This document shows positions 4,683 to 28,400 of a stretch of DNA of 32,195 bases, piece after piece (within the stretch, counting starts at the first letter, position 1; every line of letters begins with the position of its first letter). The stretch spans positions 1-32,195 of the forward strand of contig CAKZKA010000303.1 in assembly GCA_937120965.1 (NCBI GenBank). The letters run 5' to 3'. The notes beneath the pieces were generated by a model, which saw nothing but the letters and a program-made list of their open reading frames with translations, was not told the DNA's origin and did no database searches. Made by a program: the position numbers and the translations under genes. This DNA comes from an uncultured Chloroflexota bacterium. GTDB taxonomy: Bacteria > Chloroflexota > Chloroflexia > Chloroflexales > Chloroflexaceae.

Positions 4683-4722
4683 ACGAATCGTGCTTTCAGT
4701 TCTGGGAGATGTTCAGCGGCAC

Positions 4723-4900
4723 TGAGGTGAACATACGGGGAAACCGGGTTTCCCCAGGCCCCTGCCTGTGGGGGCGCCAGCCGCTCCCACCAGCGGTTGG
4801 GCAATGGGGAAACCGGGTTTCCCCATCCCCCTCCCTGTGGGGGTGCCAGCCGCTCCCACCAGCGGTTGGGCGATGGGGAAGCCGGGTTTTCCCATCCCCC
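4723..4900. repeat. Two 69-bp tandem repeat units with palindromes
   Basis: Starts with the boundary motif in reverse (CTGAGGTGAACATAC at 4722-4736) followed by GGGGAAACCGGGTTTCCCC at 4737-4755 and again at 4806-4824, with a decayed copy near 4875-4893. The sequence between them (GTGGGGG-cgccagccgctcccaccagcgg) repeats with an exact 69-bp period. The same unit is present four times at 20505-20770. Confidence 0.85.
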
Positions 4901-5107
4901 TCCCTGGGGTGAAGGTTTGAGCGTAGCGACGCAGCGGCGCTGCGTCTCTACCTATGAATATGGGACAAACCGGTTTCCCCTCAGCCCCTCCACGCATCGT
5001 TTCCCCGCGCCCCTCCCTGGGGTGAAGGTTTGAGCGTAGCGACGCAGCGGCGCTGCGTCTCTACCTATGAATATGGGACAAACCGGTTTCCTCTCAGCCC
5101 CACCACG
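4901..5107. repeat. 113-bp tandem duplication reaching into a gene 3' end
   Basis: Bases 4901-5013 and 5014-5107 are near-identical direct copies with a 113-bp offset. Each holds the GTAG...CTAC hairpin (4923-4951 and 5036-5064) and an ACAAACCGGTTTCC palindrome remnant. The right copy ends inside the last codons of the gene at 5094-5684; the left copy carries a mutated stump of the same last codons, including its stop triplet. Confidence 0.85.
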
Positions 5108-7135: not shown

Positions 7136-8572
7136 CTAGCCGGCCTGCGAGGTTTCCATCTCGTTGCGCGCGGGGTGCAACTCGACCTCGTCATCGGCCA
7201 TCTTGCCCGCGGTCTCTCTGAGGAAGATCGAGCCGACCACGAAGGTCATCAGGGCAATTGCGATCGGCCAGATCAGACCACTGTAGATATTACCGGTTGC
7301 GGCAACCAGCGAGGCGCCGATCAGCGGCAGGAAGCCACCGAAGTAGCCGTTGGCCACGTGGTAGGGCAGTGACACCGAGGTGTAGCGAATACGGGCGGGG
7401 AAGGCTTCGACCAGGAAGGCTGCGATTGGCCCGTAGACCATACCCACCCAGATCAGCAACGTGAAGATCAGGATGGTCAGCATTACCGGATTGGCGCTGG
7501 CGGCCACCGCGGGGGTCACCACCTTGTCGCCCTCCATCACCGCCGGGGTGATCGGGCCGGCGAAGTAGTGCAGCGCCTTGTAAGTAGGATAGAGCGCCAG
7601 GGCGCCGAGGAGGTTCCCGGCCATCATCACCTTCTTGCGACCGATGCGATCGGAGAGCCAGCCGAAGAAGATGAACAGCGGCAACCCGAAGGCCAGAGCG
7701 ACGGCAACGATCACATTGGCCTTGACGAACTCGACCTTGAGCGCGGACTGCAGGAAGTAGAGGGCATAGAACTGCCCGACGTACCAGATCACCGCCTGAC
7801 CGGCAGCGGCGCCAAACAGCACCACCAGAATGGTCTTCCACTGGGCTTTGCTGCCAAAGCTATCGCGGATAGGACTCTTGCTCGTCTTGCCCTGGGCCTT
7901 GAGCTTGGCAAACAACGGCGACTCGCTCATGCGCGTGCGGATGTACACCGACAGACCCACCAGGAAGATCGAGAGCAGGAAAGGAATGCGCCAGCCCCAC
8001 TCGTTGAAGGCTTCCCGCGACATCGAGAGCCGCACACCGACGATCACAGCCAGCGAAACAAACAGACCGAGCGTAGCGGTCGTCTGGATAAAGCTGGTGT
8101 AGTAGCCGCGCCGATGGCTGGGCGAATGCTCGGCGACATAGACGGCTGCGCCGCCATACTCGCCACCGAGGGCCAGACCCTGGAGAATACGAATGGTGAA
8201 GAGGATGATCGGCGCCAGCAAGCCAATCTGGTGGTAAGTTGGCAAGAGGCCGATCAGAGTGGTCGCGCCGCCCATAATCAGCAGCGTAACCAGGAAGGCG
8301 TACTTTCGACCGACCAGGTCGCCGATGCGCCCGAAGAAGAGCGCGCCGAAGGGCCGCGCGGCAAAGCCGGCGCCAAAGGTGGCCAGCGTGGAGAGGAAGG
8401 CCGCCGTCGGGTTAGTCTCCGGGAAGAACTTCGTGGCGATAATCGCCGCGAGACTCCCGAAAATGTAAAAGTCGTACCACTCGATCATCGTGCCAAGCGA
8501 GGAGGCGATGATCACTTTCCAGATGTTACTGGGCGACTCGACGGTCGCCGGCGCCGTATACGCCTTTGCCAC
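7136..8572 (-). CDS. MFS transporter, metabolite:H+ symporter (MHS) type
   Basis: The 478-residue product should be an inner-membrane proton symporter with twelve membrane segments. Family marks are the N-terminal GTMIEWYDFYIFG (about 30-42), the GRIGDLVGRK loop between segments 2 and 3, LQGLALGGEYGGA in segment 4, and the second-half loop WLSDRIGRKK. This pattern is that of ProP/KgtP/ShiA/citrate-type symporters, which carry organic acids, betaines or similar solutes. The start is GTG at 8572, with GAAAGGA upstream; no ATG fits better. It sits alone on the minus strand, 1.1 kb beyond the formate dehydrogenase operon. It shares an upstream regulatory module with that operon, which hints at a substrate linked to formate or to the same growth state. 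Confidence 0.9.
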   Translation of the reverse strand: MAKAYTAPATVESPSNIWKVIIASSLGTMIEWYDFYIFGSLAAIIATKFFPETNPTAAFLSTLATFGAGFAARPFGALFFGRIGDLVGRKYAFLVTLLIMGGATTLIGLLPTYHQIGLLAPIILFTIRILQGLALGGEYGGAAVYVAEHSPSHRRGYYTSFIQTTATLGLFVSLAVIVGVRLSMSREAFNEWGWRIPFLLSIFLVGLSVYIRTRMSESPLFAKLKAQGKTSKSPIRDSFGSKAQWKTILVVLFGAAAGQAVIWYVGQFYALYFLQSALKVEFVKANVIVAVALAFGLPLFIFFGWLSDRIGRKKVMMAGNLLGALALYPTYKALHYFAGPITPAVMEGDKVVTPAVAASANPVMLTILIFTLLIWVGMVYGPIAAFLVEAFPARIRYTSVSLPYHVANGYFGGFLPLIGASLVAATGNIYSGLIWPIAIALMTFVVGSIFLRETAGKMADDEVELHPARNEMETSQAG

Positions 8573-8939: not shown

Positions 8940-9172
8940 CCCGGTGTCGTTGCTACACCGGTGGGTTGTGGCACAGGACCTTCGAACACATAGGGAAGTT
9001 GTTAGCGGCATCCTACAGGAACCAGGAAAAAAATGGAGTGATTTTTTCGTAAACCGGAAGTAAATCTTTCGCAACTCCAAGGTTCAGGAATCAGAAGATC
9101 AAGGCATAGAATTATTTCCTTATCAACCAGGAGTAGATCTTTGGCAACGATTGGGGTGGAACAGCGTCGCTC
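8940..9172 (-). promoter_or_regulatory. Conserved regulatory module upstream of the MFS transporter (module A)
   Basis: This 233-bp noncoding stretch matches 16384-16611, upstream of the formate dehydrogenase operon, in the same orientation relative to the gene. Read on the minus strand it contains two operator-like sites. Site 2 (9116-9148) has GTTGC-N6-TCTAC-N6-TTGAT; site 1 (9045-9075) has GTTGC-N6-TTTAC-N6-TTTAC. The sites are 73 bp apart. Then come a -35-like CTCCAT (9033-9038), 17 bp and a -10-like TAGGAT (9010-9015) embedded in the conserved TGTAGGATGCCGCTAA. A hairpin, CCGGTGT/ACACCGG (8941-8961), follows. Homology and spacing are seen directly; the promoter and operator roles are inferred. 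Confidence 0.75.
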
Positions 9173-9279: not shown

Positions 9280-9704
9280 GAGGACCGGGGAAACCCGGTT
9301 TCCCCGGATTCATATCAGTCATCCATGCGGCTGCGCCGCACAACGACAAGATGAACATGGGTTTTTCTTGGGAGGGCTACGCCCTCCCAAACCCTCCCAT
9401 CAGGGAGGGGTTTGGGGAAACCCGGTTTCCCCAACCTCCAACCGCCGTTGGGGGCGTCTAGCATCCCAGCGAACAGGAGCGGAGGGAACCCCGGGTTCCG
9501 TATGCCGCGATGAACATAGGGTATCTCTGGGAGGGCCGCCCCCTCCCTGGCCCTCCCCCGCTGAGGGAGGGAACCGGGCTCCTCCCCTCAGGGAGGGGGT
9601 TGGGGAAACCCGGTTTCCCTATTTCCCAACCGCTGGTGGGAGCGGCTGGCGCCCCCTCAGGCAGGGGCCTGGGGAAACCCGGTTTCCCCGTATGTTCACC
9701 TCAG
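9280..9704. repeat. Cluster of spacer palindromes and hairpin modules
   Basis: Perfect GGGGAAACCCGGTTTCCCC copies lie at 9287-9305, 9414-9432 and 9671-9689, with a near copy at 9602-9620. At 9320-9388 a module carries two hairpins (GCGGCTGCGCCGC and GGGAGGGC...GCCCTCCC). It recurs almost unchanged at 31926-31995 and, inverted, at 17737-17815 and 26750-26830. The cluster ends with TATGTTCACCTCAG (9691-9704), 6 bp from the fdhD stop codon. Confidence 0.85.
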
Positions 9705-9710
9705 GCGGGG

Positions 9711-10520
9711 TTATGAAACAGCCTGCACTGCCGGGGAGTCGAAACCTAGCCGCTCGGGGGCACTGTAGAGGTGCATACGTCGGCCACGCACGTAGCCGCA
9801 GAGGGTAATCCCCCATTCGCGGGCCAGGCGAACGGCTGGTTCGGTAGGGGAATTGCGTGAAGCCACCAGCGGAATGCCCAGTCGGGCAGCCTTGTGAACC
9901 ATTTCAGTCGAAACCCGACCGGTGATGAGCAGCACGCCGCCTGCTGTAGGAACCCCGCGCATCAGGCCCAGGCCAGCAAGCCTGTCCACAGCGTTGTGGC
10001 GTCCTACATCGTACGCGCTGAGCAAGAGGGTATGCCCATCGCTCAGGGCGGCCACGTGAAAGCCACCCATATCATTGTAGAGGTCTGCCGTCTGGGCAAG
10101 CATACGGGCCATTTGATCGTAGATCTGCGCTGGCGTCAGACGCAGGCCGCCGGCTAACTGGTATCTGGCCTGAATCCGATCCAGAAAGGTAACCCCACCA
10201 ACGCACGCCGATGGCAACAGTGGTCGTCGAGTCAACGTAATATGACGCCGCTTGAGACGGATCGCCACACTGGCCTCTCTATGGCGGTGGACCTTGAGGT
10301 CAACAACATCATCCAGGGCGTCGATCAGCCCCTCGGTGCGCAGGAAGCCCAGGGCCAGGGCCTCGAGATCGGAAGGCGTGCAGAGCAGGGCAACCCACTT
10401 CCGGCCATTGATGTAGATGGTGCAGACCGTTTCTCGAATGATCGGCTTATGACCAGGAGTTGCGGCGCCATCGCCTACTTCGAGATAGGTCAGATTGTGG
10501 TCGGTCCAGGTAGCAATCAT
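9711..10520 (-). CDS. fdhD: FdhD-like formate dehydrogenase accessory sulfurtransferase, CxxC incomplete
   Basis: The 269-residue product matches FdhD, the protein that transfers sulfur from IscS to the Mo-bisPGD cofactor and so activates formate dehydrogenase. Family motifs are clear: SAYDVGRHNAVDRL, LLITGRVSTEMVHKAARLGIP and the C-terminal CGYVRGRRMHLYS. In the mobile loop, however, the usual C-x-x-C is C106-V-G-G109, so the second Cys is missing. The other FdhD in this window has the full motif (C120, C123). It is the last gene of the FDH operon and overlaps fdhE by 4 nt (ATGA). A role in the adjacent FDH is likely; whether one Cys is enough, or it works in another way, is open. Confidence 0.88.
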   Translation of the reverse strand: MIATWTDHNLTYLEVGDGAATPGHKPIIRETVCTIYINGRKWVALLCTPSDLEALALGFLRTEGLIDALDDVVDLKVHRHREASVAIRLKRRHITLTRRPLLPSACVGGVTFLDRIQARYQLAGGLRLTPAQIYDQMARMLAQTADLYNDMGGFHVAALSDGHTLLLSAYDVGRHNAVDRLAGLGLMRGVPTAGGVLLITGRVSTEMVHKAARLGIPLVASRNSPTEPAVRLAREWGITLCGYVRGRRMHLYSAPERLGFDSPAVQAVS

Positions 10521-11338
10521 ACGCTTTGATAGCCCGACGAGATGGCCATCAGGTCCATTCCAACGGTGAGGATACGCTCGGCGGGAAGCTGGACCGGACG
10601 GGCCAGTTCGCGCAGGTCAATTGTCTTCAGATAGCGCCGGCAGGTGTCGCAGGTATATAGCCGGTAGGCGCCATCCTGGCTGGCTATGTACCCCAGATGG
10701 CCCGGTCTGGTTTCGCTGCAGAAGGGGCATGCACCCCGGGGCGCCTGCCACTCAGCATCACAGCGCGCGCACAGAAGCTGCCGCGCGCCTCCGGCGGGGA
10801 GGAGTGCCGCCATATCGGCTGGCCCGCCACAGATGGGGCACCACGAACGGTACCACGTCTCGCGGCTCGCCAGGGATTGCCAGGCCCGCGCATAGGCGCT
10901 GAGGAACGGGTGCAGGGTCTGATTAAGAGTGAAATCTAACAGTGTAGCGCCACCGGGCACGGCGCTGGCTGGTCGGCGTACCGGGTGCGCCCGGTTTGCC
11001 AGATGCTCCGTGATGGCCTCACGCAATTCGTCAGGATTATCGGCCAGTTTAGCCAGCTCGCGCAGCGCATCAGCCTCATCAGGACGATGAGCAGCAGCGG
11101 CGTTGCAGATCCCTGTGAAGATACGCGCCAGGTCGTTCCAATTCGGCGTCAGGGTCACAGCATTCAGCAGCGGCTCACCCTGCGCCAGCCTCGTCTCCGC
11201 CACGCCAAGGGGCAATGACGGAGGCGCCGGTGGGTCAACCGTGGCACGTACCTCCAGCAGCGCAATGTGCAACTCCAGGGTCTCGCGCAACTCAGGATGC
11301 CGAGGCAGCGCCTCACGAAGATAGTCAATCGTGTGCAT
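10517..11338 (-). CDS. fdhE: Formate dehydrogenase accessory protein FdhE
   Basis: The 273-residue product is FdhE, a rubredoxin-like iron-binding chaperone needed for maturation of respiratory, Tat-exported formate dehydrogenases. Its C-terminal half has the four CxxC pairs of the family: C167/C170 (CPIC), C190/C193 (CARC), C204/C207 (CPFC) and C230/C233 (CDTC). The N-terminal 150 residues are helical, as expected. I chose the ATG at 11338 because it lies 4 bp after the gamma-subunit stop. A longer in-frame start at 11443 would overlap that gene by 101 bp and adds an unrelated sequence. It is translationally coupled to fdhD by an ATGA overlap. Confidence 0.92.
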   Translation of the reverse strand: MHTIDYLREALPRHPELRETLELHIALLEVRATVDPPAPPSLPLGVAETRLAQGEPLLNAVTLTPNWNDLARIFTGICNAAAAHRPDEADALRELAKLADNPDELREAITEHLANRAHPVRRPASAVPGGATLLDFTLNQTLHPFLSAYARAWQSLASRETWYRSWCPICGGPADMAALLPAGGARQLLCARCDAEWQAPRGACPFCSETRPGHLGYIASQDGAYRLYTCDTCRRYLKTIDLRELARPVQLPAERILTVGMDLMAISSGYQSV

Positions 11339-11342
11339 AGCG

Positions 11343-12053
11343 TCACTCGTCCCTGCAACGCCGGTAGACACGCTCCTGCTCCTGTTCGGCCAGCCACTTG
11401 CCGTGATGCTCGCGGGCAAATTCTTCAGTGACGGTACCTTCAAACATCGCCGTGATCGACTCGCGCATCAGAGGATGCACGGCCACCAGGTAGATGTGCA
11501 GGATGAAGAGCGCTACTGTGGCGATGACCGATAGATCGTGGACGATCACGCTCCCCACAAAGATCGCCGGCGATACGACACCCCGACCGAACCACATAAT
11601 CAGGCCACTGACTACGAACAGGATGAAGGTTATGATCTGCGTCAGCGCATTGAACTTCTGACCGGCGTTGTACTTACCCTGGGGAGGCATGCGAGCGGTA
11701 TCGCCGCGAGTGTAGTAGCCCCAGGCTGCCCGTAGCCAGCCCAGGTCGTCGGGTCCCCAGGTAAGGGCTTCACGCAGGCTGTAGAAGAAGTCGCGCGGCG
11801 ACCAGATCAGATACACCAGGGGCGCGGCCATGAAGAGGACTGCCGCTGCGCGATGGGCCAGGCGGCTGGCCTCACCGGCTTCGCCGACCGCAAATGGCCG
11901 CAGAGCGGGCATGTACAGGAACATGCCAGTACCCAGGAGGATGGTGAAGGCAATGAAGTGCACCCAGTGGGCAACGCGTTCGCCAGCCGTGAAACGCATG
12001 ACCAGCACCTGGCGCCGGTCTTTGCAAGGTTTGCTTGCAGTTGAGGTGGCCAT
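11343..12053 (-). CDS. fdhC: Formate dehydrogenase gamma subunit, cytochrome b556
   Basis: The 236-residue product is a membrane diheme cytochrome b of the FdnI/FdoI type, which takes electrons from the FeS beta subunit and reduces quinone. Four membrane segments lie at about 30-48, 68-85, 136-155 and 173-193. Candidate heme ligands line up with the E. coli FdnI set: H29, H67, H172 and H186, with the last two 14 apart as in FdnI. H32 and H193 are extra. It is fourth in order from... the promoter side it is the third gene, with a 5-bp gap to beta and a 4-bp gap to fdhE, so the operon is tightly coupled. Confidence 0.93.
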   Translation of the reverse strand: MATSTASKPCKDRRQVLVMRFTAGERVAHWVHFIAFTILLGTGMFLYMPALRPFAVGEAGEASRLAHRAAAVLFMAAPLVYLIWSPRDFFYSLREALTWGPDDLGWLRAAWGYYTRGDTARMPPQGKYNAGQKFNALTQIITFILFVVSGLIMWFGRGVVSPAIFVGSVIVHDLSVIATVALFILHIYLVAVHPLMRESITAMFEGTVTEEFAREHHGKWLAEQEQERVYRRCRDE

Positions 12054-12058
12054 AGCTT

Positions 12059-12886
12059 TTATGCCTCACTTTCCTCAGTTGCATCCGGCTCGACGGCCTC
12101 GATGTTGCTCAGGCGGGCACGACGGGTCGCCAGCCAGTTGAAGGCCAGGCCGAGAGTTGTGGCGGCAACGGCGAGGTAACCCAGGGGCTGAACGACCTGC
12201 TGCCAGCTCGCCACCAGAGTGGAGTACTGAGGATTGACGGGCAAGCCATAGGCTTCGGGCGGCGCAGTGAGCACGAACAGTCGCCCCAGGCCGCCGAGTT
12301 CCGTTTCACCATACACCTGAGCCTGGTCGTAGCCCCGACTCTGCAACCACTCCACCCGCGCGTGGGCCTTTTCGAGCAGCGCATCACGCTCGCCCCATTC
12401 CAGCGCACCAGGGGGACAGGTCTTAACACAGGCGGGAGTCAGGCCATTGGTCGCGCGATCCTGGCAGAAGGTGCACTTAGAGGCCCGGGCTTCGCCCGTC
12501 AGCAAGTTAACCGTCTCCATCCGCGGCACCTTGAACGGACATGCCTGGCTACAGTAGCCGCAGCCGTTGCACAACTCGCGCTCGAGCGATACGAACCCCA
12601 GCGCATTGTGCTTGAGGGCGCCGGTAGGGCACACGTCTACACACGCTGCCTGGGTACAATGCACACAGCCCCAGGCCAGGAACAACCACTGAAACTGGCC
12701 ATTCGCCTCGTACTCGTGAAACGTGACCCGCGCCCACGTGTTCGGTTCCAGGTCGGTGGGGTTTTCATACGTGCCGACCTGGGTCGTCTCACTGGCCGGC
12801 AGGCCCCACCATTGCTTGCAGGCTACCTGGCAACTTTTGCACCCGATGCACCTGGATGCATCGAACAGCATCGCCAGTCTGCTCAT
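12059..12886 (-). CDS. fdhB: Formate dehydrogenase beta subunit, four [4Fe-4S] clusters
   Basis: The 275-residue electron-transfer subunit is of the FdnH/FdoH type. Sixteen Cys are arranged in four groups: C13/16/19/23, C74/77/82/86, C106/109/112/116 and C138/141/153/157. This fits four [4Fe-4S] clusters wiring the alpha-subunit active site to the cytochrome b. A single hydrophobic segment near the C-terminus (about 234-257) should anchor the protein in the membrane, as in E. coli FdnH. There is no Tat signal of its own, so export is expected by hitchhiking on the alpha subunit. The gap to alpha is 12 bp. Confidence 0.95.
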   Translation of the reverse strand: MSRLAMLFDASRCIGCKSCQVACKQWWGLPASETTQVGTYENPTDLEPNTWARVTFHEYEANGQFQWLFLAWGCVHCTQAACVDVCPTGALKHNALGFVSLERELCNGCGYCSQACPFKVPRMETVNLLTGEARASKCTFCQDRATNGLTPACVKTCPPGALEWGERDALLEKAHARVEWLQSRGYDQAQVYGETELGGLGRLFVLTAPPEAYGLPVNPQYSTLVASWQQVVQPLGYLAVAATTLGLAFNWLATRRARLSNIEAVEPDATEESEA

Positions 12887-12898
12887 ACGTGACCTCCT

Positions 12899-15800
12899 TT
12901 AGAGCTTCCGCACGTCGACCAGGAAGGCCTTGTATTCAGGGATGTTCGTGTTACCATCGCCGACGTGAGGGGTGAGATCATTGGCGCTGGCGCCGCGGGC
13001 AATGCCTTGCCACGCGAAATGCCAGGGCATACCGATGTGGTGGACCAGGCGGCCATCAATGGTGTACGGTTGCCAGCGAGCAGTGACCATCGCTATGGCC
13101 TTGATCGCGCCTCGTGCGCTCACAACCTCAATCAGGTCGCCGTTGCGAATGCCGCGTTCGGCAGCCAGAGCTTTAGAGATCTCGACGAACATGCCCGGCT
13201 GGGCTTCAGAGGGCCAGGGGAGGTAACGGGTCATAGCTCCTGACTGCCAGTGTTCGGTGAGGCGGAAGGTTGTACAGACGATGGGGAAGCGGTCCGGCGC
13301 GCCCACATTGTCGCCGATATCCTGGCCGCGGTTGGTGTCGAACACCTTGACCACAGGATTGAACTGGGTGTGCGAGAGTGGGTTGGCGACAGGGGCCTCG
13401 AGCGGCTCATAGTGCTCCGGTAGCGGGCCTTCATTCAAGCCAGACGGCGCAAACAACCATGCTTTCCCGTCGGGCTTCATGAGGAAGGCGTCGGTGCCAG
13501 ATTGAGCAGCCAGGCTGGTGCCGGCCGGGTTACCCTGCGCGTCCGGCGCCTTGGTGATGGGAAAGTCGGGCACATCGTAGCCGGTCCACTTCTTCTGGGT
13601 GGCATCCCACCAGATCAGCTTCCGGGCTTCCGACCATGGTGTGCCATCGGGACGGGCCGAGGCGCGGTTGTAGATGATGTGCCGGTTTGCAGGCCAGGTC
13701 CAGGCCCAGTAGGGGTGGGTTCCGACCCCGCCAGGATCGTTCTGCCCGCGCCGCCGGGCGGCAGGCATAACCACGCCGGTGCCATCATCGGCGGGCGCCC
13801 AGTAGCCGCTGTAAATCCACGCCCCACAGGCAATGGCCTCGGGGTTAGCGGCACTGGCAATGGTGGCGAACGAGGGCATCACTCCACCAGCAGCTACCAG
13901 TACCTTGTCCGAGGTATCCTTGACGTCCTCCAGCGCATAGCCATTCATCTCACGGGCTACCCGCTCGGCCTGGGGCGGATCGCCGTAGTCCCACACCAGG
14001 TCGAGGATAGGCCGGTCTTTGGCGGCAGTACTGCCCTGGTACACAGCCTTGATGGCCCGCATCATCCGGTCAAGGATCCAGATGTCTTCCTTCGCCTCCC
14101 CGGGCGGGTTAGCCACCTTGTTGCGCCACTGAATGACGCGCCCACTGTTCACCACGCTCCCGGCCTTCTCCATCGCAGCGGCCGCAGGCAGGAGAAACAC
14201 CTCGGTCTTAATCGCCGCACTGTTTACCCCTGGAGCGCGCCAGAACGACGCGGTCTCGGTATCAAACAGCTCCATAACGACCAACCAGTCGAGGTTGGCG
14301 AAAGCCTCTCGTTCGAAGCGGGCGTTTGGTCCACTAACGAACGGGTTCTGGCCCATAACGAACATGCCTTTGATGATCCCCTGGTGCAGCGCTTCAAACA
14401 TCGGCATGAAGGAGTAGTCGCCGGAGCGCTTGGGAATATAGTCGTAGGCGAAGTTGTTCTGACTGTTCGCTTTGTCGCCGAACCAGGCTTTCATCATGCT
14501 GTTGAAGAAGCGTGGTCCGTTTGCCCAGAAACTGGTCTTGCTGTACTTGGCGACAAAGGTCTGGTAATCGGGCTGCTTGACGGTGGGAAGGCCGAGGTAC
14601 CCGGGTAGATCCTGGTAGAGCAGGCCCATATCCGTCGAACCCTGGACGTTTGATTCGCCGCGCAGGGCGTTCACCCCCCCACCTGGAATACCGATGTTAC
14701 CAAGCAGGAGCTGCAAGATGGCGTAAGCGCGGATATTCTGAGCGCCGACCGTGTGCTGGGTGGTACCCATTGCATAGAGGATCGTCCCGGCCTTGTCGGG
14801 AGCGCCGGTCGCGCAGTATATACGCGCCACCTCGAGGAAACGCTCCCGAGGCGTCCCGCAGATCCGTTCGACCATCTCAGGAGTGTAACGAGCGAAGTGG
14901 CGCTTCAGGATGGAAAAGACTGTGTGGGGGTCCTCCAGCGAGGCAGCCTGCTTGGGGACGGTCGCTTCTTTTTCGACCTCAACCTCGTTGCCGGAGGCGT
15001 CGCGTTCTTTGACCTTGACCCTGACCTTCTCGGTCTGATACTGCCAGGTCGCCGGGTCATAGGTGCGTTTTTCCGGATCGTATCCCGCAAACAGCCCATC
15101 GAGTTCATCAGGCCCCTGGTAATCGGGATGGATGAGGGTCAGAGCGTTGGTGTAGGCCTTAATGTACTCCTCGTTGTAGAGCCGGTTCTGGATGGTGTAG
15201 TTGATCAACCCGCCGATGAAGGCAATATCGGTGCCGGAGCGGAATGGCACGTAGAGATCAGCTCTGGCGGCTGAGCGGGTAAAACGCGGGTCAGCAACGA
15301 TAAGCCTGGCCCCACGTTCCTCCATCGCTTTGGTGATCCAGCGAAAGGAGATGGGGTGGTTCTCGGCAGGGTTGCTCCCAATAACCAGGAACACGTCGCT
15401 GTTCTTGAGGTCCACCCAGTGATTGGTCATCGCACCGCGGCCAAAGGTTGGCGCCAGAGCACCCACGGTCGAGGAGTGGCAGAGACGTGCCTGATGCTCG
15501 AGATATACAATGCCCAGGGCGCGTGCGAATTTGGAGGCAAGGTAGCAGTCCTCGGTATTATTGGCCGCGCCCCCTAACCAGGCGATGCCCTCCGTGCGAT
15601 TGACTGTCACCTCACCGTCTTTTTCGCGGAAGGTGGCATCACGAGTGGCCTTGACACGTCTGGCAATCCGGGCGATCGCCCAGTCCCACGATTTTTCTTC
15701 CCAGGTGGTACTGTAGGGGGCGCGATAAAGGACCTTGCGGAGGCGTTTGGGATCAGTGGAGAGCTGGGTAATCGATTGAGCCTTGGAGCAGAGCGTACCG

Positions 15801-16048
15801 CGGTTATGCACATTGTCCGGGTCGCCCTCGGTATTAACGATGTGACCGTAGACATCGGTGGCAACCAGCACGCCACATCCCACACTACAGTAAGGGCAGA
15901 CGCTTGTTGCTTCTCCCATACGCTTGTGGAGGGGAAAGATAGTTGCTGTTGCACCCGCCGCAGCGGCTGCCGCGCTGCCGGTAGGTAATAGCAAACCACC
16001 TGCGACCACGCCGGTCGCTTTCAGAAAGTCGCGCCTCGACACTTTCAT
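12899..16048 (-). CDS. fdhA: Formate dehydrogenase alpha subunit, Tat-exported, Cys-type
   Basis: The 1049-residue molybdopterin oxidoreductase oxidises formate to CO2 at a Mo/W-bisPGD centre. The N-terminus has a twin-arginine signal (SRRDFLK, 4-10, then a hydrophobic Ala/Gly stretch), so the enzyme acts outside the cytoplasm. One [4Fe-4S] cluster is bound by C51, C54, C58 and C87. The metal ligand is C190, followed by H191 (ARLCHSSTV). E. coli FdnG has selenocysteine here, so this is the Cys form and no Sec insertion is needed. Length is close to FdnG (1015). A strong GGAGGAAG precedes the ATG. It is the first gene of the five-gene operon, with a roughly 400-nt leader and a conserved upstream module. 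Confidence 0.96.
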   Translation of the reverse strand: MKVSRRDFLKATGVVAGGLLLPTGSAAAAAAGATATIFPLHKRMGEATSVCPYCSVGCGVLVATDVYGHIVNTEGDPDNVHNRGTLCSKAQSITQLSTDPKRLRKVLYRAPYSTTWEEKSWDWAIARIARRVKATRDATFREKDGEVTVNRTEGIAWLGGAANNTEDCYLASKFARALGIVYLEHQARLCHSSTVGALAPTFGRGAMTNHWVDLKNSDVFLVIGSNPAENHPISFRWITKAMEERGARLIVADPRFTRSAARADLYVPFRSGTDIAFIGGLINYTIQNRLYNEEYIKAYTNALTLIHPDYQGPDELDGLFAGYDPEKRTYDPATWQYQTEKVRVKVKERDASGNEVEVEKEATVPKQAASLEDPHTVFSILKRHFARYTPEMVERICGTPRERFLEVARIYCATGAPDKAGTILYAMGTTQHTVGAQNIRAYAILQLLLGNIGIPGGGVNALRGESNVQGSTDMGLLYQDLPGYLGLPTVKQPDYQTFVAKYSKTSFWANGPRFFNSMMKAWFGDKANSQNNFAYDYIPKRSGDYSFMPMFEALHQGIIKGMFVMGQNPFVSGPNARFEREAFANLDWLVVMELFDTETASFWRAPGVNSAAIKTEVFLLPAAAAMEKAGSVVNSGRVIQWRNKVANPPGEAKEDIWILDRMMRAIKAVYQGSTAAKDRPILDLVWDYGDPPQAERVAREMNGYALEDVKDTSDKVLVAAGGVMPSFATIASAANPEAIACGAWIYSGYWAPADDGTGVVMPAARRRGQNDPGGVGTHPYWAWTWPANRHIIYNRASARPDGTPWSEARKLIWWDATQKKWTGYDVPDFPITKAPDAQGNPAGTSLAAQSGTDAFLMKPDGKAWLFAPSGLNEGPLPEHYEPLEAPVANPLSHTQFNPVVKVFDTNRGQDIGDNVGAPDRFPIVCTTFRLTEHWQSGAMTRYLPWPSEAQPGMFVEISKALAAERGIRNGDLIEVVSARGAIKAIAMVTARWQPYTIDGRLVHHIGMPWHFAWQGIARGASANDLTPHVGDGNTNIPEYKAFLVDVRKL

Positions 16049-16383: not shown

Positions 16384-16611
16384 CCCGGTGTAATCGTACA
16401 CCGGTGTGGGTAGAACTTCAGGCTTCAGAGCAGGTGGTGTTTAGCGGCATCGTACAGGAAACCGCAAAAAATGAAATAACTGTTTCGTAAACTAGAGGTA
16501 AATCTTCTGCAACTGAAGGTTTCGCGAGCGGGATATTCGAGCTGTAGAATTGTGTTTTTATCAACTATGCGTGGATTTTGTGCAACAGTCGAGATGGAAC
16601 AATGTCCGCTC
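16384..16611 (-). promoter_or_regulatory. Conserved regulatory module upstream of the formate dehydrogenase operon (module B)
   Basis: This is the counterpart of 8940-9172. On the minus strand, site 2 (16555-16586) has GTTGC-N6-TCCAC-N6-TTGAT and site 1 (16483-16513) has GTTGC-N6-TTTAC-N6-TTTAC. They are again 73 bp apart. A -35-like TTTCAT (16471-16476), 16 bp and a -10-like TACGAT (16449-16454) follow, then GCCGCTAA and the hairpin CCGGTGT/ACACCGG at about 16384-16403. Order, spacing and orientation equal those of module A while the filler sequence has diverged, which suggests selection on the sites. Confidence 0.78.
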
Positions 16612-18641: not shown

Positions 18642-20444
18642 ATGCACCAGCGTGTCCCTGAGCGCAATGAGATTCCCGTTGAATACACCTGGGATGCTGC
18701 CAGCGTCTTCGCCAGTGAGGCCGACTGGGCCGCGGCAGTGGGCAGGGTCACCAGTCGGATGGAGGAGCTTGCCATCTACCGTGGTCGCCTCGCTGACGGC
18801 CCGGCAACCCTGGCCGACTACCTCGCCCTGGCCGAGGAGTTGCTCCGCACCACGGCGCAGATCGGTGTCTACGCCCGCATGTTCTACACCGTCAACACCG
18901 CCGACGCGGCGGCCCAGGCTCGCGTGGATCGGGCCACGACGCTCACGGCGCGGCTGGGGGCCGCGCTGGCCTTTGGCGAGCCGGAAATGCTCGCCATCGG
19001 GGCGGAGCGGCTGCGCGAATGGACCAGGAGCGAGCCGCGCCTGGCCCACTATGCGCACCACTTCGAGCGTCTTGCCCGCCGCGCCGCCCACGTGCGCTCG
19101 GCTGAGGTCGAGGAGTTGTTGCGCCAGATCGGCGAACCTTTCGTGGCCGCCAGCGCCACCCACGCAATCCTCGCCAATGCCGATCTGCGCTTCGCTCCGG
19201 CTCAGGATACGCAAGGCGAATCCTTCGAGATTGCTCAGGGCACCATCAACGCGCTGCTGACCCACCCCGACCGACAGGTGCGCCGCAGCGCCTGGGAAAG
19301 CTACGCCGATGCCCATCTGGCGCTCAAACACACCCAGGCCAGTTGCCTGGCCACGGGGGTCAAGCAAAACGTCTTTATCGCCCGCGCGCGGCGCTACTGC
19401 TCGGCGCTCGAAGCCGCCCTGGCGCCCAACGATATTCCGCTGGAGGTCTTTCACAACCTGATCGCCACCTTCCGCCAGCACCTGCCGGTGTGGCACCGCT
19501 ACTGGCGCCTGCGCCGCAAGGCTCTGGGGCTGGATGCGCTCCAGGTGTATGACATTAAGGCGCCGCTGACCGCAGCGCCGCTCCACGTGCCTTATCCCCA
19601 GGCTGTCACGTGGATCTGTGATGGGATGTGGCCGCTGGGTGAGGAGTACGTGGCCGTGATGCGCCGCGGTCTCACCGAGCAACGCTGGGTGGATGTGTAC
19701 CCCAACCGGGGCAAACGCGCTGGCGCCTTCTCGATGGGATCGCCGGGGACCCACCCGTTCATTATGATGTCGTACAACGACGACATCTTCAGCCTCAGCA
19801 CCCTGGCCCACGAACTGGGCCACTCGATGCACTCCTACTACACGCGGGCCACCCAACCCTTCGTCTATGCCAATTATGGCCTCTTTCTCGCCGAAGTTGC
19901 CTCGAACTTCAACCAGGCCCTCGTGCGCGCCCATCTCCTGACCCGGCTTCAGGAACGCCACGCGCAGATCAGCATCCTCGAAGAGGCCCTCTCAAACTTC
20001 CATCGCTACTTCTTCGTTATGCCCACCTTGGCTCGCTTTGAACTCGAGATCCACGAACGGGTTGAACGGGGTGAGGCCCTCACCGCCGACAGCCTGATCG
20101 CCCTGATGGCCGACCTCTTCGCCGAGGGCTACGGCGATGAAGTGGTTATGGATCGCGAGCGCGTCGGCGCGACCTGGATGCAGTTCTCCACCCACCTCTA
20201 CGCCAACTTCTACACCTACCAGTACGCCACCGGTATCTCCGGCGCCCACGCCCTCGCCGAAGGGGTGCTGGCCGGCGTTCCCGGCGCCGCCGAACGCTAC
20301 CTGGACTTCCTGAAGGCCGGCAGCTCGCGCTACCCCCTCGACATCCTGCGCCACGCCGGGGTGGATCTGGCTTTCCCTGAACCCGTGCAACGGGCCTTTG
20401 CCGTGCTCGAAGGGTACATCGCGCGGCTCGAAACACTGATGTGA
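18642..20444 (+). CDS. pepF: Oligoendopeptidase F (peptidase M3B)
   Basis: The 600-residue cytosolic zinc metallopeptidase of the M3 family cleaves peptides of about 7-20 residues. The zinc site is H390-E391-x-x-H394 in [10 protein letters not shown] with the third ligand E418 (LAEVASNF). The [14 protein letters not shown] block (about 352-365) and a late Tyr-rich [12 protein letters not shown] block (substrate binding) are typical. Length matches PepF (about 600). I preferred the ATG at 18642, with GGAG upstream, to a TTG 18 bp earlier. The stop TGA lies within the boundary motif of the following spacer repeat, so the last two residues (Leu-Met) are probably repeat-derived. Confidence 0.93.
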
Positions 20445-20790
20445 ACATACGGGGAAACCCGGTTTCCCCACCTGCGGTGAGCCTGTCGAACCGCACCCCC
20501 GCCTGTGGGGGCGCCAGCCGCTCCCACCAGCGGTCGGGACATGGGGCAACCGGGTTTCCCCATCCCCCTGCCGGTGGGGGCGCCAGCCGCTCCCACCAGC
20601 GGTCGGGACACGGGGCAACCGGGTTTCCCCATCCCCCTGTCGGTGGGGGTGGCAGCCGCTCCCACCAGCGGTCGGGACATGGGGAACCCGGGTTTCCCCA
20701 CATCCCCGCCTGTGGGGGCGTCAGCCGCTCCCACCAGCGGACGGGACACGGGGAAACCCGGTTTCCCCATACTCCCGCCTATGGGGCGGC
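20445..20790. repeat. Four-unit 69-bp tandem array with palindromes
   Basis: A perfect palindrome follows the pepF stop (20451-20469). After a GGTGAGCCTGTCGAACC block comes a unit containing CTCCCACCAG at 20521, 20590, 20659 and 20728, an exact 69-bp period. Each unit carries a palindrome whose arms vary (GGGGCAACCGGGTTTCCCC, GGGGAACCCGGGTTTCCCC), ending with a perfect copy at 20750-20768. From 20790 to 20870 only degenerate repeat sequence is seen. Confidence 0.9.
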
Positions 20791-20874
20791 AAGCCCTCCC
20801 CACCGGGAAGGTTTGGGAGGGCGTAGCCTGCCGCCTGCCCGAGGAGAGCCTTCGTGGGGCGCCTGTCGTACCCT

Positions 20875-27769: not shown

Positions 27770-28400
27770 CTCGGAGGGCGCAGCCCTCCCACGCCCTCCC
27801 GCGGGCGGGCTATGTTCACGTTAGACGGTCATGCGCATGGCGCACAACGCCAGAATGAACATAGTATTGTTCCTGGGAGGGCTGCGCCCTCCCAAACCCT
27901 CCCCGCGGGCGGGTTGGTTCCTGGGAGGGGGCAGGGGCGCGGCGCCGCCGCGCCCCTACGCCCAAAACCTCCCGCGGGCGGGCTATGTTCACGTTAGACG
28001 GTCATGCGCATGGCGCACAACGCCGCGATGACCATGGGGTATCTCTGGAAGGGCCGCCCCCTCCCTGGCCCTCCCCCGCTGGGGGAGGGAACCGGGCGCC
28101 TCCCCACAGGGAGGGGGAATGGGAAACCCGGTTTCCCCATATGTTCACCTCAGGCCCCATGCGCGGGGCGCACAACACCGTGAATGGGGTATCTTTGCGA
28201 GGGCCGCCCCCTCCCTGGCCCTCCCCCGCTGGGGGAGGGAACCGGGCGCCTCCCCGCAGGGAGGGGGGTGGGGAAACCCGGTTTCCCCATTTCTCAACCA
28301 CTGGTGGGAGCGGCTGGCGCCTCCACAGGCAGGGGTGCGGTTCGACAGGCTCACCGCAGGTGGGGAAACCCGGCTTCCCCATATGTTCACCTCAGAGCAC
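27770..28400. repeat. Dense spacer repeat block between gnd and zwf
   Basis: No gene is seen. Two near-identical segments end in CTATGTTCACGTTAGACGGTCATGCGCATGGCGCACAACGCC (about 27808-27852 and 27980-28024). Two more carry GGGCCGCCCCCTCCCTGGCC plus CTGGGGGAGGGAACCGGGCG (about 28050-28115 and 28200-28262). Palindromes lie at about 28119-28137, 28270-28288 (perfect) and 28362-28380. Boundary motifs TATGTTCACCTCAG lie at 28140-28153 and 28382-28395, the last 9 bp before the zwf start codon. The hairpin GGGGCGCGGCGCCGCCGCGCCCC sits near 27933. Confidence 0.85.

Follow-up and report, generated by a model that had tools for sequence, protein, structure and literature searches.

Two-component control of acetate use has been described in Gammaproteobacteria, where the CrbS/CrbR (MxtR/ErdR) system is associated with the ACTU motif (PMC5715377). 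It controls acs together with an ActP-type symporter via a short, imperfect inverted repeat just upstream of the promoter; the regulator CrbR belongs to the LuxR family, and the sensor CrbS is a kinase fused to a symporter domain. In Sinorhizobium, RpuS/RpuR controls a pyruvate symporter (PMC9100948), likewise with a LuxR-family regulator and a fusion of kinase and symporter domain, but via an imperfect direct repeat known from one target operon.

Among regulators of the OmpR family, two actinobacterial proteins are relevant in the context of promoter architecture. MtrA of Streptomyces recognises KTRACC-N5-GTKAC, and its described targets in this genus are developmental (PMC5650626). GlnR, a nitrogen regulator with acs and prpE among its targets, recognises consecutive boxes of gTnAc-n6-GaAAc-n6 repeats (PMC10704036, PMC6023979).

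Little seems to be known about the control of organic-acid use in Chloroflexota. This group includes anoxygenic phototrophs as well as abundant sludge filaments. Here, we analyse a stretch of 32,195 nucleotides (the “window”) from an uncultured Chloroflexota bacterium of the family Chloroflexaceae, together with related genomes. Judged by sequence, the repeated blocks it contains are a real DNA control element that is common to the order Chloroflexales and placed before genes for the import and activation of acetate-like acids. A limited search of the literature on Chloroflexus and Roseiflexus returned no description of this promoter, regulon or system.

Phased Blocks in the Window

A first-pass annotation of the window had proposed two modules, each with two sites of the form GTTGC-N6-TYYAC-N6-TTKAY, 73 bp apart. 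Both modules carry this arrangement exactly, and within every site the blocks start 11 bp apart on the minus strand (Table 1). With at most one mismatch, the pattern is matched five times in the window, compared with 0.01 matches expected from shuffled sequence; in the whole 5.18-Mb genome, exact matches are confined to these four places, with 0 for the control. However, the two modules, one at 16445-16586 before a formate dehydrogenase (FDH) operon and one at 8991-9148 before an MFS transporter gene, are homologous to each other and, thus, their agreement alone proves little.

The near site had also been described as ending 6 bp from a -35 element. This is not confirmed, as a -35 consensus is missing and the constant distance is that to the -10 (32 or 33 nt). 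At the FDH promoter, the usual -35 position is occupied by a further 11-bp-phased block. A sigma-70 scan around the MFS module gave no site at the presumed promoter, and an Rfam search of the window gave no match.

Table 1. Coordinates of modules, target genes and further features in the window
Feature	Position	Strand	Remark
Far site, MFS module	9122..9148	-	GTTGC/TCTAC/TTGAT, 11-bp phase
Near site, MFS module	9049..9075	-	GTTGC/TTTAC/TTTAC
Fourth 11-bp step, MFS module	9038..9042	-	ATCAC, weak form of order-wide TTAW
Inferred -10 TAGGAT, MFS module	9010..9015	-	from sequence and orthologue alignment; 33 nt past near site
Far site, FDH module	16560..16586	-	GTTGC/TCCAC/TTGAT
Near site, FDH module	16487..16513	-	GTTGC/TTTAC/TTTAC
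Fourth 11-bp step, FDH module	16476..16480	-	GTTAT, fits order-wide TTAW
Inferred -10 TACGAT, FDH module	16449..16454	-	32 nt past near site
MFS metabolite/H+ symporter (target gene)	7136..8572	-	2A0106-like, below curated cut-off
FDH-N-type alpha subunit (target gene)	12899..16048	-	cysteine form
FDH operon, iron-sulfur beta subunit	12059..12886	-
FDH operon, cytochrome b gamma subunit	11343..12053	-
FDH operon, FdhE-like accessory protein	10517..11443	-	below curated cut-off
FDH operon, FdhD sulfurtransferase	9711..10520	-
Hairpin	16385-16404 and 8941-8961	-	also L018, L061, L020
GGGGAAACCCGGTTTCCCC repeats, examples	4722-4925, 9584-9709, 20436-20853, 28234-28395

Conservation and Gene Context within the Genus

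The 73-bp spacing is kept in all three further genomes of the genus that possess the module (G002, G003, G004). In G002 and G004 the module was identified by exact pattern, and in G003 by homology, with the variants GTTGT and TTGAA. Pairwise comparison of the five modules from four genomes of the genus yields identities of 97% for the near blocks and 88% for the far blocks, 78% and 55% for the N6 gaps, 63% for the whole spacer between the sites (57% for its distal part, the last 29 bp), and 28% for the ungapped upstream flank. The 11-bp phase, whose conservation in orthologous promoters had been named as a check, is confirmed. Outside the genus, a search with the full module returned short, weak matches only.

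While the window genome has one module before the FDH operon and another before the MFS gene, G003 has a single module followed by the MFS gene and then the whole FDH operon; in G002, the module precedes FDH and the MFS transporter is absent, and in G004, it precedes the MFS gene, with no FDH at the locus. The module accompanies FDH, MFS or both, as expected for a control element. Gene order thus differs among these four genomes, and the control module has been duplicated or lost along with FDH or MFS. In the fifth genome of the genus (G001), searches found neither the module nor FDH nor the MFS transporter.

The alpha subunit gene of the window FDH is free of in-frame TGA codons, and the same holds across this genus. 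Elsewhere in the order, an in-frame TGA, probably for selenocysteine, is present in the majority of the FDH alpha genes found; G017 is another genome without it.

An Order-Wide Promoter Type

The promoter-near half of the window modules belongs to an order-wide promoter type. Among 82 Chloroflexales genomes searched, TTTAC-N6-TTTAC-N7-TTAW-N21-TANNNT gives 50 matches in 39 genomes, compared to 0 for the reversed pattern and 0 when TTAW is slid by one base. All matches fall into two families of the order, and none lies elsewhere among the 158 genomes of the class. The looser TTTAC-N6-TTTAC-N32-TANNNT gives 66 matches in 44 of the 82 genomes, versus 5 for its reversal. Conservation extends to positions that the search did not impose (AAA within the first gap, TTA at 24-26, and T and A at 35 and 37, respectively). 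The resulting consensus reads TTTACcrAAACTTTACAcaAanCTTAwynTnnnnTgAaAaannnctgnTAcaAT, and its 11-bp steps fall at 1, 12, 23 and 34. GTTGC is a genus-level addition outside this core. Tandem direct half-sites in a 10-11-bp phase upstream of the -10 are typical of OmpR/PhoB-type operator arrays, and this is what the promoters display. Three matches of the looser pattern (G047, G053, G055), with neither TTAW nor a relevant gene, were set aside, as was an exact match to TTTAC-N6-TTTAC shared by four genomes, which falls into the first part of the coding region of a Clp-ATPase-like gene.

Regarding the genes served, with target families assigned on representatives of the annotated sites, 34 of 38 sites precede either VC_2705/ActP-like Na+/solute symporters (TIGR03648) or acetate/propionate-CoA ligases (AcsA/PrpE); in the lineage of the window, annotated targets also include the MFS transporter and FDH. 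As a further reading, a phosphate (PhoP) regulon was considered; neither pst nor pho genes are among those at the annotated sites, and nitrogen-assimilation genes were found at none of the 38.

At acs and symporter genes, this genus has one near-type array per promoter, again 32 nt from the -10. In the FDH/MFS near arrays, the N6 gaps deviate from the order-wide consensus and the matrix score is low; hence, they could be the targets of a paralogous regulator. The MFS module departs further from the order-wide form by its weak fourth block and by 33 instead of 32 nt to the -10.

The Far Array

Far arrays are confined to the FDH/MFS modules of this genus and to one MFS promoter in another genus (G014). 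There, the promoter of the MFS orthologue carries TTTAC-N6-TTTAC twice, the near copy 32 nt from TATGAT; it is the sole TTTAC double array among the 82 genomes, and inspection of the sequence before the order-wide sites revealed no second array. Given this restricted occurrence, their poorer match, and the lack of a -10 at the corresponding distance, the far arrays are probably auxiliary. In the MFS promoter of G044, which has one TTTAC pair, the distance to the putative -10 is 107 nt and a near array could not be placed.

The 73 bp between the sites had been read as close to seven helical turns. The distance is constant within the genus, but in G014 it is 76 bp, about a quarter-turn away; as the five genus modules share descent, seven turns are no more than a possible basis of the 73 bp.

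A Candidate Regulator Encoded with a Symporter

In G005, a site-driven symporter is adjoined by genes for an OmpR-type response regulator, a histidine kinase and a fused small-plus-large symporter. The best models for this response regulator are MtrA, YycF and PhoB, and the nearest solved relative of the candidate is MtrA (2gwr); on the MtrA equivalog model, the G005 orthologue scores 247.7 bits and does not pass the cut-off of 300. Regulator, histidine kinase and fused symporter constitute a conserved operon, with kinase and symporter as separate genes. The window genome encodes it at C249, on a contig different from that of the modules; the response regulator gene occupies L311:7827-8513 on the minus strand.

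Of the 82 genomes of the order, 51 encode an orthologue of the regulator (at least 67% identity). Among these 51, 39 carry the TTAW-containing site, versus 0 of the 31 without the regulator, counts that are confounded by shared ancestry and uncorrected for it; outside the family of the window, the corresponding figures, equally uncorrected, are 7 of 10 and 0 of 31. Among the twelve regulator-bearing exceptions, G010, G015 and G026 have close site variants and G011 has a site without TTAW; in G023, G025, G035, G064, G069 and G072, the search did not find a second target symporter, with G006 and G071 as the remaining two.

Gene linkage points in the same direction. In at least four genomes (G005, G011, G013, G017), the regulator adjoins site-driven genes or lies within a few kb of them, with regulator, kinase and site-driven symporter clustered in the latter three. 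The distant G037 encodes, consecutively, a 60%-identical regulator, TTTAC-N6-TTTAC, a symporter and two acs genes, and in G044, an MFS gene with a TTTAC pair upstream precedes a gene for a PrpE-like ligase, at a distance of 3 kb from a 59%-identical regulator. Speaking against the candidate, a site upstream of its own operon was seen in none of ten genomes checked, and in the window genome it is not on the contig of the modules.

The first-pass annotation had offered an OmpR/PhoB-type activator as one hypothesis. Although the annotation misplaced the -35, the hypothesis is supported: the 5-bp/N6 layout is that of MtrA and GlnR boxes, and the candidate matching best by distribution and neighbourhood is MtrA-like and of the OmpR/PhoB type. 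Such a response regulator is the most likely reader of the element.

Proposed Mechanism and Alternatives

Starting from the observed element with its geometry, conservation, gene context and co-occurrence with the regulator, we consider it about 65% probable that each module is an activator-dependent promoter driven by the MtrA-like OmpR/PhoB-type response regulator upon a carboxylate signal. Phosphorylated dimers of the regulator would bind the tandem 5-bp half-sites, whose 11-bp spacing places them on the same face of the helix. With the array extending through the would-be -35 position, the bound regulator would substitute for a -35 and recruit RNA polymerase to the -10 set 32-33 nt after the last TTTAC. 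Activation is suggested by the location of the arrays, where an OmpR-type activator would contact the polymerase, and by the phased block in place of the -35. As far as the target genes indicate, the histidine kinase would probably sense a short-chain carboxylate outside the cell (acetate, propionate or formate), possibly jointly with the fused symporter encoded in its operon. The ActP-like symporters and the acetate/propionate-CoA ligases would form the core of the regulon, joined under the same control in this genus by FDH and the MFS transporter, whose second array 73 bp upstream probably aids the loading of the regulator.

The same promoter class might also be read by another OmpR-fold activator, i.e., a GlnR-like orphan, a SARP/AfsR-type regulator or a paralogous response regulator. 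GlnR has the same 5-bp/n6 block layout, and its targets in Mycobacterium smegmatis include acs and prpE (PMC10704036, PMC6023979); SARP regulators are reported with heptameric direct repeats, and many of the genomes encode paralogous response regulators of about 50-57% identity to the candidate. However, site distribution and gene linkage track the specific MtrA-like orthologue, which makes another activator rather unlikely. That the arrays serve as repressor operators, or as an architectural element without activating function, is improbable: OmpR-class proteins are capable of repression, and Streptomyces MtrA has been proposed to repress bldD via a site overlapping the -10 (PMC5650626), whereas the present arrays keep a constant distance upstream of the -10 and, instead of a -35 consensus, show a phased block.

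Finally, the repeats could be functionless, due to chance or to the shared descent of two duplicated promoters, a view to which the homology of the two modules lends itself. It is effectively refuted by the null controls, by the better conservation of the blocks than of gaps and spacer, and by the recurrence of the geometry before non-homologous genes across the order.

Relation to Known Systems

With the MtrA-like regulator as the preferred reader, the system would work like CrbS/CrbR, sharing two-component control of acs and acetate-type symporters, a short motif immediately before the promoter, and a symporter tied to the sensor. However, it is not a member of that system, given its OmpR/PhoB-type candidate regulator, its direct repeat, and its separate genes for kinase and symporter. 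It has in common with RpuS/RpuR the two-component control of a monocarboxylate symporter via direct repeats, in contrast to the regulator family and the domain fusion. Actinobacterial MtrA is the nearest characterised relative of the candidate by profile and solved structure; block length and phase of its site are the same, while the bases are partly different, and the candidate is encoded with a symporter rather than linked to developmental targets. The likeness to GlnR concerns the OmpR family, 5-bp blocks with n6 in consecutive boxes, and acs and prpE as targets, but the block sequence is another one. The element is best described as a putative OmpR-class operator, and the whole as a new regulon type in Chloroflexales.

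On balance, we favour a two-component system for acetate/carboxylate control that evolved independently in Chloroflexales. It would consist of a kinase and an MtrA-like regulator, possibly with the free-standing symporter as co-sensor, and would read an 11-bp-phased array in place of a -35; one genus would have widened its reach to formate oxidation and gained another array some seven helical turns upstream. If the candidate pair reads the element, this would be a newly recognised acetate switch, with sensor and regulator encoded beside an acid-importing pump. The parallel with CrbS/CrbR suggests that the pairing of sensor and symporter for acetate control arose with different classes of regulators. 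Furthermore, the promoter rule is specific enough for genome-by-genome prediction of the regulon, with a candidate regulator named, and the gain of formate oxidation and a second operator array under the same control in one lineage provides an evolutionary case.

Further Features of the Window

In the leader downstream of the -10, all five FDH/MFS modules contain a hairpin, CCGGTGTA-loop-TACACCGG. Its loop length is variable and some pairs are changed to G-U, with no double changes; an RNA hairpin appears more likely than an operator. In addition, intergenic stretches of the window harbour many interspersed repeats built on GGGGAAACCCGGTTTCCCC, in places arranged in tandem with a period of 67-69 bp.
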